Shown here piece after piece: positions 30,927 through 38,499 of a stretch of DNA of 38,499 bases. The stretch is from Promethearchaeota archaeon (lineage in GTDB: Archaea > Asgardarchaeota > Lokiarchaeia > Sigyniarchaeales > SOKP01). Position numbers and translations under genes: made by a program. The stretch lies in NCBI GenBank assembly GCA_019894715.1, contig JAGXOA010000090.1, forward strand, positions 1-38,499. Direction: 5' to 3'. Numbering within the stretch: position 1 is the stretch's first letter; every line of letters begins with the position of its first letter. The notes under the pieces were generated by a model. It saw only the letters and a list, made by a program, of their open reading frames with translations, did not search any database and was not told the DNA's origin.

Positions 30927-32069
30927 TTATTTTTTATCACCCCTTTTTAAAAATTTGTCAATAATTTTATTGAATCCCAACAGTATCGATTTCTTATCCT
31001 TTAGTGTTAGATTATTATTAATTAAAATATTTTTATAGGATTTTTGAACTTGTTTTTTAATTAAATCCAAAAAATAACCAATACTATTCAAGTCTTCACT
31101 TGCAATTATAAAAAATAATAGTTGATGAAGCGAGTGATCTCCATGATTAATAAAGATGTATTGATCTCCATGAGATATTTTTTCTATGTCCTCATCTTTA
31201 TTAATAAAATTTGAAATAAAATCTTCTATTTCTGATATTCCCGTTGTTAATATGATAAGTTTATCTAAAGTTTGAGAAGAATACCCAAGATTAATATTTT
31301 TACTATCATTTTTCTCTGAAAAATTATAAAAAAATATCATTTCATTTATATTAGAATCAATGATAAAAATTTCTTCAATTTTGTTTTGCCAGTTTAATTC
31401 TAAAAGAACTGGAAACTTATACACACCAAATAATATTATTAATAATCCCAATATCATTAATGGAATCGTAACTAGTTCAATCAATTGCTGTAAATTCTCT
31501 ATAAAATATTCTGAAGATTCTTCTGCTCGAAATAAAATAGCACTCAAAAGTATAGAAAATCCTATGTAAATTAAAATAAAACGTTTTTTCGCATTATTAG
31601 GGATCTTTCTAATGATTTTAATATGCGAATAAGTTAAATAGATAGATCCAATAATTAAGCTAAGATATATCAAATTTCTTTCTAAATCCTTAGGAATTAC
31701 AAATATAATAATAGTCGAAATGATAGATGCGATGATCAATACTGTTTTTGTTAACTTTACATTCACGATTTCATCAAATGACTTTCCAGAAAGAGTTATA
31801 AGAAATATAAGAACACCAAATGCTATTAAAATATGAGAGAATTTATATAACAGAAAATGTAATAAAATATCTTCAAAATAATAAGAAGCAATTGTTCTTA
31901 TGAAAACACCACTCATTCCAAATGCGGATAATAAACCATATGCTAGAATTATTCTATTAAGCGTTATTTTTTTTTTTCTAAGTTTAATATATTGGTAAAT
32001 AAGGTAAAAACTAATTTCATATCCTATAAAAAGTGTTATATACAAAAAGGGTAAATAATATTCTTGCAA
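30927..32069 (-). CDS. 7TM protein with C-terminal longin-like domain
   Basis: A 380-aa paralogue of the next gene. Seven helices occupy roughly residues 6-26, 39-59, 70-93, 107-125, 133-150, 165-182 and 198-216. The exit KFPVLLELNWQNKIEEIFII (218-237) parallels KIPSLSELHWRDKLGSIFII in the paralogue. The soluble part (228-380) alternates strands and helices in a longin/roadblock-like order, with GDQYIFINHG and a final helix. The membrane half resembles the 7TM sensor regions of prokaryotic histidine kinases, but the output kinase is replaced. It is the first of a co-directional set of three genes. Its stop codon lies within a few bases of the start region of the next gene, suggesting coupling. 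Confidence 0.65.
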   Translation of the reverse strand: MQEYYLPFLYITLFIGYEISFYLIYQYIKLRKKKITLNRIILAYGLLSAFGMSGVFIRTIASYYFEDILLHFLLYKFSHILIAFGVLIFLITLSGKSFDEIVNVKLTKTVLIIASIISTIIIFVIPKDLERNLIYLSLIIGSIYLTYSHIKIIRKIPNNAKKRFILIYIGFSILLSAILFRAEESSEYFIENLQQLIELVTIPLMILGLLIILFGVYKFPVLLELNWQNKIEEIFIIDSNINEMIFFYNFSEKNDSKNINLGYSSQTLDKLIILTTGISEIEDFISNFINKDEDIEKISHGDQYIFINHGDHSLHQLLFFIIASEDLNSIGYFLDLIKKQVQKSYKNILINNNLTLKDKKSILLGFNKIIDKFLKRGDKK

Positions 32070-32251: not shown

Positions 32252-32284
32252 AGAAAGCCACGTCCTTTAGGGCGTGGTAGTTCA
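32252..32284 (+). mobile_element. Solo right end of an IS200/IS605-type element
   Basis: gaaagccacgtcctttaggg followed by cgtggtagttca is almost identical to the right end at 94-126 and to the inverted one at 38360. Hairpin ccacg/cgtgg with the terminal tagttca. No tnpB sequence remains to its left, so this is a stripped terminus. Confidence 0.7.
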
Positions 32285-32538: not shown

Positions 32539-32545
32539 AAAAAAA
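32539..32545 (-). terminator. Oligo-T terminator of RNA copy 1
   Basis: Seven T on the minus strand following ctctttcttctc. The same context with eight T ends copy 2 at 32842-32849. A conserved U-run directly after the 3' arm of the closing stem is a typical archaeal terminator. Confidence 0.5.
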
Positions 32546-32660
32546 GAGAAGAAAGAGTAGAAATTTAAATATCAAGTGAAAAGGGGAGATTCTATTAAAT
32601 AAAACTTATTTAATAGAAGGCGAAATCCAATTTTATATTCTAAATTCTTCACTCCTTCTT
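32540..32660 (-). ncRNA. Structured small RNA candidate, copy 1
   Basis: About 121 nt on the minus strand. It begins aagaaggagtgaag, whose arm pairs with the 3' ctactctttcttct to close a long terminal stem (aaattt on the inside of both arms). Inside lies the segment attggatttcgccttc, nearly invariant between the two copies, followed by a perfect 11-bp hairpin (ctattaaataa, loop gtt, ttatttaatag). Copy 2 has a different but still perfect hairpin at the same place, which is covariation. A TATA box lies about 26 nt upstream and an oligo-T tract lies at the end. There is no ORF in it. It matches no RNA family I recognise; neither tRNA, SRP RNA, RNase P nor C/D box features are present. Confidence 0.6.
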
Positions 32661-32680
32661 GAAATATTAATCATGACTCA

Positions 32681-32692
32681 CATATAAATATT
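32681..32692 (-). promoter_or_regulatory. TATA box of RNA copy 1
   Basis: catataaatatt on the plus strand (aatatttatatg on the minus strand), within a 20-bp block (aatacRtgaatatttatatg) shared with copy 2 and placed about 26 nt before the gaagg that starts the RNA. Confidence 0.5.
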
Positions 32693-32714
32693 CACGTATT
32701 AAAAAAACTAATAA

Positions 32715-32815
32715 GGATATGAACTTGAACTAATCCAATTTTTATTCTTCAAAAAATAAATTAAAATATAAAAAATCTCTTGAAATTACTATTGTTCTAA
32801 CTAATAATTCATGTA
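32715..32815 (-). other. Possible decayed partial third RNA copy
   Basis: Between the two clear copies the minus strand shows aatacatgaatta, atttcaagaga and aaaattggatt in the same order as promoter block, RNA start and conserved core of the intact copies. The TATA box, the cgcc and the hairpin are lost. Could be chance in such A+T-rich DNA. Confidence 0.25.
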
Positions 32816-32841
32816 TTATATTTAGATTATAATATATTTAG

Positions 32842-32849
32842 AAAAAAAA
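32842..32849 (-). terminator. Oligo-T terminator of RNA copy 2
   Basis: Eight T on the minus strand after cttctttcttctc, directly following the 3' arm of the terminal stem. Confidence 0.5.
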
Positions 32850-32966
32850 GAGAAGAAAGAAGCCGAAATTTGAAAAACAAATATAAAGGGTGAGTAAAAT
32901 TAAACTGTTTTTAGTTTAATAGAGGGCGAAATCCAATGTTAAATATCAAATTTGTGGTCTCCTTCA
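32842..32966 (-). ncRNA. Structured small RNA candidate, copy 2
   Basis: About 125 nt on the minus strand, 306 bp upstream of copy 1 and in the same direction. It starts gaaggagacc and its 3' end ggcttctttcttc completes the terminal stem; caaattt and aaatttg form seven inner pairs. The core cattggatttcgccctct is nearly identical to copy 1. The central hairpin is attaaact / agtttaat with a six-base loop, whose arms differ from copy 1 but keep full pairing. The 3' strand between hairpin and terminal stem is C-rich in both (ctcaccctt / ctcccctttt). Own TATA box and terminator, so it is an independent transcription unit. Confidence 0.6.
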
Positions 32967-32986
32967 ATTATTATAATCTGAATTTA

Positions 32987-32998
32987 CATATAAATATT
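32987..32998 (-). promoter_or_regulatory. TATA box of RNA copy 2
   Basis: catataaatatt on the plus strand, identical to copy 1, about 25 nt before the predicted RNA start. The conserved spacing in both copies supports a real promoter. Confidence 0.5.
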
Positions 32999-33183
32999 CA
33001 TGTATTTTAGAGTAGAAAAATAAAGTTTTTTATCTGAATAAAATGAGTTGGATTATTTGGATATTTACCCAACATTATTTAAAAAAAACACCAATATTCT
33101 TAAAGAATTTTATTAGCTTATTATAGTTTTTCTACAAAAAATGAAGAAAAATTCTAAAATTTTACTATAATAACAAAAAAAAT

Positions 33184-33250: not shown

Positions 33251-34426
33251 TTAGCTCTGTTGAATTAATTTAAGGCATTCTTGATAAAAATGATTCCCAT
33301 ATTTACCATTTGCATGGATTGGAGTTTTAATAACATTATCTTTTTTTTTATTCCTCCTTCCTTCCATTAAATCTACAAAGGCTTCTAATCGTGTTCTGAA
33401 TCCTTCTATTCCACTTTGTTCATCAAATGAGAAATATATAATTGGTAGATCATATATCCCTTTTAATTTATTTGTTATTATCGTTCGGGCTGTTACTTCT
33501 GGCATACAAGTAAATGGATATGAATGAACGAAACCATCAAATCCTGCTTTAGCATTATCTATATATTGACCTATTACCCAAACACACTCTCCCCCTATAT
33601 CCATAGGGATATACGGTTTAGCTAGATGCTCTAACCATTTTCTATGATAATTTAAATGAAATTTATGAACCATCCAATCCCATAAACTTAAACATTGATA
33701 TAGTTCAACACCCATTTCTCCTAGTTTTCTTCTAATATCTAGATTAACATATGGTTCTAAAGATATATAGATTTCTCCAGCAAGTCCTACTTTTAATGGT
33801 CTATGATTTTTATCAATATCTAACTTTTCAAAGTCCTCCCTAATGACAGATCTAAAATTTCTAAGCCCTGTATTAGTATTTGTATCATCTAATTTATGGA
33901 TTAAACTACTGACTATTTTTGTAGTATCGCCTTGTTTTCTCTCGTATGCTCTAAAAACGCCTTCGGCCGTTTGAATATCTTCAAGATATTTTGCTTTTTT
34001 TAAAAAGTAGATGACTGATTTTACAAATTTAGGATAAAGAGATAAACTTGGTTTACCTGATACTTTAAAGAGGGTTTTTACCCATTGAAAATCTAATAAA
34101 TCTGCTTGATCTAGTGGTATTAAACGAAATTTATCATATCCTGCATCTCTTAAAATTCTTTCTTGCACGCTTGCATAGAATCCAAATCTACAAGGTCCAC
34201 AATCAATAGCCATTATAATTGTATCTGCTCCTTTATCAAGAGCACTTTTAAGTTCTCCTAATGTTGGTTTAAATGGAAAACATACAAATTCAGGACTATG
34301 TTTTACACCAAATTTAACCAATTCTCTATTTGCTGGATCAGGTACAATAACCTCAACTCCGAGATTTTCGATTAAAGCTTTAAAAGCTACCCATGAGGTA
34401 CCCATTCTTGGAAAGGTTACTCGCAT
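33251..34426 (-). CDS. DUF2229 / HgdB-type CoA-dehydratase-like subunit
   Basis: A 391-aa protein of the acyl-CoA dehydratase/reductase-like (DUF2229, HgdB-related) family that cooperates with BadF/HgdC ATPases. VTFPRMGTSW opens the first Rossmann-like half. Likely cluster ligands are C49 (EFVCFPFKP) and C76-GPC79, with further Cys in GGECVWVIGQ and YPFTCMPEV. The C-terminus FDEQSGIEGFRTRLEAFVDL is the family's closing motif, also present in the paralogue at 35048-36121 (MDEHSGEAGMLTRIESFVEM). Substrate unknown; some members belong to benzoyl-CoA-reductase-like or 2-hydroxyacyl-CoA dehydratase systems. Own promoter at 34469-34480. Confidence 0.75.
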   Translation of the reverse strand: MRVTFPRMGTSWVAFKALIENLGVEVIVPDPANRELVKFGVKHSPEFVCFPFKPTLGELKSALDKGADTIIMAIDCGPCRFGFYASVQERILRDAGYDKFRLIPLDQADLLDFQWVKTLFKVSGKPSLSLYPKFVKSVIYFLKKAKYLEDIQTAEGVFRAYERKQGDTTKIVSSLIHKLDDTNTNTGLRNFRSVIREDFEKLDIDKNHRPLKVGLAGEIYISLEPYVNLDIRRKLGEMGVELYQCLSLWDWMVHKFHLNYHRKWLEHLAKPYIPMDIGGECVWVIGQYIDNAKAGFDGFVHSYPFTCMPEVTARTIITNKLKGIYDLPIIYFSFDEQSGIEGFRTRLEAFVDLMEGRRNKKKDNVIKTPIHANGKYGNHFYQECLKLIQQS

Positions 34427-38359: not shown

Positions 38360-38499
38360 TGAACTACCACGTCCTGAAGGACGTGGCTTCCTACGAGTGC
38401 ACGATCGCTTCTACTACGGATTGGCCTGTATATCGTAGAAAACCCTTCCATTGGTTTTTGAAGGATTCCTCGTTCACAGAGGGTTGATGCGATAGGAAA
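38360..38499 (-). mobile_element. IS200/IS605-type right end with tnpB 3' fragment (window end)
   Basis: Reverse complement of the element at 1-126 with only two differences seen over about 125 bp. The minus strand from 38498 reads FLSHQPSVNEESFKNQ, then WKGFLRYTGQSVV, to EAIVHS and a stop at 38391, followed by the ccacgtcc/ggacgtgg hairpin and tagttca. It extends a little further into tnpB than the copy at the start. Cut by the window end. Confidence 0.85.

Follow-up and report, generated by a model that had tools for sequence, protein, structure and literature searches.

A lineage-specific structured RNA family with a nearly invariant core in Lokiarchaeia

Introduction

Several described classes of small RNA resemble the RNA examined here in part. 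Y RNA, the RNA of the Ro60 ribonucleoprotein, is likewise small, with its ends shut by a long stem, a big pyrimidine-rich internal loop, and an oligo-U end; the new RNA differs in having another conserved core and no Rfam match. 6S RNA is also a rod with a big central bubble, but the new RNA is shorter, is multicopy, has an invariant sequence core, and again has no match in Rfam. The archaeal H/ACA and C/D guide RNAs share with it a small size, multiple copies, and independent transcription, whereas the core of the new family is invariant and a variable guide was not seen. A parallel in mode of discovery is provided by lineage-specific RNAs, such as those among the 104 candidate structured RNAs obtained by comparative genomics (PMC2864571), which were recognized through conserved sequence and covariation while their function was unknown. 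The family described here differs in that it is not in Rfam 15 and is limited to one Lokiarchaeal family.

We describe this RNA from two blocks in a 38.5-kb stretch of Lokiarchaeal DNA (the window, by which we mean the whole stretch analyzed). The evidence supports well that the two blocks are genes of a real, previously undescribed, lineage-specific structured RNA family, both in its existence and in its structure. A lineage close to the ancestry of eukaryotes thus has an RNA of its own that is nearly family-wide. Its nearly fixed core, recurrent hairpin insertions, and stable locus offer a handle on Asgard noncoding RNA biology, and the analysis yields a working covariance model, predicts the 5' end, and names a few proteins as candidate partners.

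Results

The two minus-strand blocks that the initial annotation had placed 306 bp apart are both present in the window. They lie in a zone that is gene-free, as described, with no ORF of at least 80 aa between the flanking genes, a CoA enzyme activase-like gene (DUF2229; positions 33251-34426) and a gene without a Pfam match (30927-32069). RNA copy 1 occupies 32843..32965 and RNA copy 2 occupies 32539..32658, each about 120 nt on the minus strand, with copy 1 running from a 5' end at GAAGGAG to a 3' end in a T-run. The two copies scored 98.3 bits (E = 4e-16) and 73.1 bits (E = 7.4e-11), respectively, against the covariance model of the family. The invariant 12-nt core TTGGATTTCGCC is found on the minus strand at 32925..32936 in copy 1 and at 32619..32630 in copy 2 and occurs exactly twice in the window, with 0.08 occurrences expected at up to one mismatch. 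A T-run closes both copies, at 32842..32849 and 32539..32545 (minus strand), and is terminator-like.

The central hairpin described previously, here termed P3, forms in the predicted folds of both copies, with arms ATTAAACT/AGTTTAAT in copy 1 (32899..32920, minus strand) and TTCTATTAAATAA/TTATTTAATAGAA in copy 2 (32590..32618, minus strand). The 5' GAAGGA arm pairs with the 3' CTTCTT arm in both predicted folds; in copy 1, the 5' arm of this closing stem, P1/P2, lies at 32946..32965 on the minus strand, and its partner lies at approximately 32853-32873. The folding energies of the two copies were -18.0 kcal/mol (z = -2.5) and -26.6 kcal/mol (z = -3.25). The initial annotation had called the hairpins covarying, for which one pair of copies is insufficient as proof; the proof is supplied by the homologues described below. 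Its length estimate of about 120 nt is right for the common form; an inserted hairpin lengthens other members to as much as about 175 nt. Its reading of the blocks as duplicated independent genes is favored by a TATA-like box for each copy at a set spacing. However, their tandem arrangement is atypical, since copies are mostly single at syntenic loci. The counterparts of the window pair in the sister genome are split between two contigs, and one of them adjoins a beta-CASP gene and a remnant of that gene.

A covariance model was built from 46 representatives and then rebuilt from 102 members, giving about 130 matches, with strict filters in both runs. The RNA was detected in 58 of the 65 genomes of the window's Lokiarchaeal family at 1 to 8 copies per genome, and in none of 163 Asgard genomes outside that family. 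Very divergent members could be missed because of the strict filters; one genome (G020) was missed by the model, and its RNA was recognized by eye at the expected locus, raising the count to 59. The search of Asgard genomes thus produced the further homologues with compensatory changes that the initial annotation had anticipated. BLAST with the 481-bp stretch gave matches in 26 of 39 relatives and further matches in the window's own genome, including two clear members (contigs C118 and C56), although some weak matches represented AT-rich flanks and not the RNA. A scan with exact 24-mers across one genome for each of 84,980 prokaryotic species returned 52 stretches, all from Candidatus Lokiarchaeota or Lokiarchaeia, and viral contigs yielded no match. 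That no known RNA family is involved was borne out by Rfam 15, which gave no matches at the gathering threshold or up to E = 10. No description of this RNA was found in searches of open-access papers.

The RNA takes the form of a rod in which the 5' and 3' ends are paired (P1/P2), followed by an internal loop and capped by the hairpin P3. P1/P2 change fast in sequence yet covary. The internal loop is large and asymmetric, with an essentially invariant left strand, AUUGGAUUUCGCC, and a pyrimidine-rich right strand that usually contains CCU. When P2 and P3 were examined in an alignment made from sequence only, 15 of the 19 pairs showed two-sided changes and 86 percent of cells were paired; the same level of covariation was reached in none of 500 shuffles of this alignment, and slid versions gave 23-50 percent. 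In the model-fitted alignment of 102 members, which leans towards the covariance model, two-sided changes were found at 28 of 30 pairs, with 438 two-sided cells versus 189 when shuffled. Because P1 slides in register between sequences, the arms were additionally swapped among 39 divergent members. For P1 and P2 together, an RNA's own arms were better by 7.9 kcal/mol (z = -13.5); the effect was weaker for P1 alone (z = -4.6), and for P3 the own arms were far better than the swapped arms (z = -7.3).

The core was identical in all 46 representatives, and the internal-loop left strand ATTGGATTTCGCC was constant among them. The pattern scan demanded this strand, whereas BLAST imposed no such requirement and its clear members carry the strand unchanged. 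Rare variant cores were found as TTGGATTTCGTT in two members (L051 and L052) and ACATTTCGCC in another (L157). Four structural types were distinguished. Type A is the common form, to which both window copies belong. Type B carries an extra hairpin within the AUUUCG loop at one of two insertion points, after GGAU (with GCCAAAA preceding UUCGCC) or after GGAUUUC. Despite their different sequences, the inserts fold, and they are present in genera g2, g4, g6, and g8. Among the g6 members examined (L162, L163, L164, and L246), the insert occurs in one species and is missing from three sisters at the same locus. This pattern in g6, together with the presence of inserts in several genera, indicates that the hairpin was gained or lost more than once. 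Type C, from g8, has a short right strand with most of it missing, and type D occurs in g6. The arrangement suggests that AUUUCG is an exposed loop and that the invariant flanks form one folded element. A peptide encoded in the core was considered, as 43 of 46 representatives have an in-frame stop after TTG-GAT-TTC-GCC-CTC-TAT, but the wobble positions never vary and members with inserted hairpins or of type C break the frame. The in-frame stop is therefore explained by the pairing of P3.

The promoter block AATACRTGAATATTTATATG is 20 nt long and has two exact occurrences on the minus strand, at 32987..33006 ahead of copy 1 (TATA box at approximately 32988-32996) and at 32681..32700 ahead of copy 2 (TATA box at approximately 32682-32690). 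The block has no third occurrence in the window at up to three mismatches (0.13 expected). The TATA boxes of the window copies stand 27-28 nt ahead of the first stem, and across the family, 36 of 44 scoring copies contribute to a peak of TATA-like octamers 29-34 nt before the GRAGG of the 5' stem. Archaeal transcription starts about 26 nt after the TATA box, and the position of the peak places the start probably at or near GRAGG. T-runs were found downstream in 36 of 52 copies. On sequence evidence, the genes thus have a putative promoter and terminator of their own, as would be expected of genes for trans-acting small RNAs or ribonucleoprotein RNAs. Roughly half of the copies (for example, L142, L020, and L011) carry a palindrome close to TGTTCNTGATATNNGAACAT some 40 nt upstream of the TATA box; this palindrome is absent from both window copies and is a possible site for a regulator. 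It was rejected as a general promoter element: across ten genomes, many of its sites with 0-1 mismatches belong to the RNA genes, and a sample of the remaining sites had no tRNA or Rfam RNA.

Known classes were compared in turn. A terminal stem with a pyrimidine-rich internal loop, as in Y RNA, is present, a resemblance of architecture only, and a Ro60/TROVE gene was found in none of 26 genomes searched, in a search whose control responded. The C box (RTGATGA) and D box (CTGA) of C/D guide RNAs occur together in 1 of 46 representatives, and an ACA near the 3' end occurs in 3 of 46, whereas H/ACA guide RNAs carry one just 3' of their last stem. The RNase P RNA of the window's own genome is elsewhere, on another contig (G000:C23). 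SRP RNA was also rejected: matches to it, scoring below the Rfam cutoff, were found at other positions in 7 of 10 genomes, among them the sister genome, and none was found in the window's own genome. The gene downstream of the RNA is on the same strand in 49 cases and on the opposite strand in 51, indicating that the RNA is neither a leader nor a riboswitch.

Many copies lie at loci that are syntenic across genera. At locus 1, the main one, the gene order is F4, F3, N6A methylase, small GTPase, RNase-Z-like hydrolase, and RNA, with the RNA on either strand. Among 40 genomes of genera g1, g2, g3, g4, g7, and g8, 38 have an RNA no more than 3.3 kb from the single-copy hydrolase, on the 3' side of that gene; of the other two, one is a fragment at a contig edge and one is a genome with a completeness of 64 percent. 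The left flank is syntenic among the 20 genomes compared (GTPase in 17, methylase in 16), and the right flank varies. In g6, the order is F3, methylase, and RNA, with the RNA about 100 nt after the methylase and the hydrolase elsewhere; g5 has the gene cassette with no nearby RNA. An unfiltered run of the RNA model over the hydrolase loci in two families (f2 and f4) and two genera (g5 and g6) gave nothing significant. The hydrolase also occurs in families that lack the RNA and is more divergent there. At locus 2, present in g1, g2, g3, g4, g5, and g8, the RNA is near a protein of 70-86 aa; in g2, a beta-CASP RNase-J-like gene separates the two. Locus 3 is confined to g8. Such synteny shows vertical inheritance, which falls short of proving a shared function. 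The hydrolase had no match in a defense library, in which the methylase is distantly like type IIG and MAD2 enzymes, and the hydrolase profile had no match among PDB sequences.

Discussion

We lean, with some reserve, towards a multicopy trans-acting RNA that has its own TATA promoter and whose core is bound by protein in a ribonucleoprotein. We infer this function, taking the protein-binding step from the pattern of conservation. Judged from the putative signals, each copy would be transcribed from its own TATA promoter and end in a U-run. The core would be folded and protein-bound, the RNA would act in trans within the ribonucleoprotein, and duplicate copies would supply dose or condition-specific expression. 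Only candidate partners can be named: the RNase-Z-like hydrolase, the N6A methylase, the small GTPase, the RNase-J-like beta-CASP protein, and the 72-aa beta-strand protein. Because hairpins are inserted into it, the core need not be contiguous, which favors a folded protein-binding core over an antisense seed. However, a conserved single-stranded core could pair with short targets invisible to a 15-nt search.

A trans-acting antisense RNA, in which the C-rich core or the CUCUCCCU strand would pair with mRNAs or rRNA, for example at ribosome-binding sites, is the main competitor, although an unlikely one. C-rich loops are typical of regulatory small RNAs, most predicted folds leave the core and right strand largely single-stranded, and the genes appear to have their own promoters. 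A search of the own genome for the complement of the core, however, gave no other site at 0-1 mismatches and only two at two mismatches, versus one for the control, and the hairpins inserted in several lineages would break a seed. It is somewhat less probable that the RNA is a partner, substrate, or regulator of the adjoining metallo-beta-lactamase nuclease, RNase-Z-like at locus 1 and RNase-J-like beta-CASP elsewhere. The hydrolase keeps the RNA on its 3' side in both orientations in nearly all genomes of six genera while the genes beyond the RNA vary, and a beta-CASP gene adjoins other copies. Yet the g6 RNA stays with the methylase and not with the hydrolase, the g5 cassette has no RNA nearby, and families without the RNA also have the hydrolase, in a more divergent form; the linkage may be inheritance only, because the whole left flank is also syntenic. 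More speculative still is that the RNA may be a component of a Lokiarchaeal ribonucleoprotein system encoded with the N6-adenine methylase, small GTPase, and metallo-beta-lactamase nuclease, with extra copies serving other nucleases. To our knowledge, this combination of genes with an RNA is known nowhere else.

The rod with its big internal bubble would also suit a 6S-like regulator that binds RNA polymerase or a transcription factor, but we know of no archaeal precedent, genomes have up to eight copies, and little of the right strand remains in the short type C, making this reading very improbable. That the RNA is the end of a mobile element, or a MITE that a transposase has spread, is the most doubtful reading of all. 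Several copies are dispersed, and IS200/IS605-like hairpins neighbor both window copy 2 and the C118 copy, but the copies keep syntenic positions across genera, the stems covary, and no copy is found in viral contigs.

Some features of the neighborhood were observed in addition to the RNA. The N6-adenine DNA methylase, Rab-like small GTPase, and RNase-Z-like hydrolase form a conserved Lokiarchaeal block (L225-L243). The small protein of 70-86 aa (L060:1827-2036 and relatives, in six genera) is predicted to be rich in beta-strands and has no Pfam match; the predicted fold of the 72-aa neighbor has a pLDDT of 74.6 and no significant PDB match. In g2, divergent RNase-J-like beta-CASP proteins are encoded downstream of the RNA (L042, L058, L074, L102, and L136-L141), often with an upstream protein that, by eye, resembles the polyamine synthase BpsA.

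IS200/IS605-like palindromic hairpins close to CCACGYCCTNNAGGACGTGG occur in the window at 100-118, 32258-32276, and 38367-38386 (0 expected). Those at both contig ends share a flank of about 80 bp, and another is near the RNA in G000:C118.
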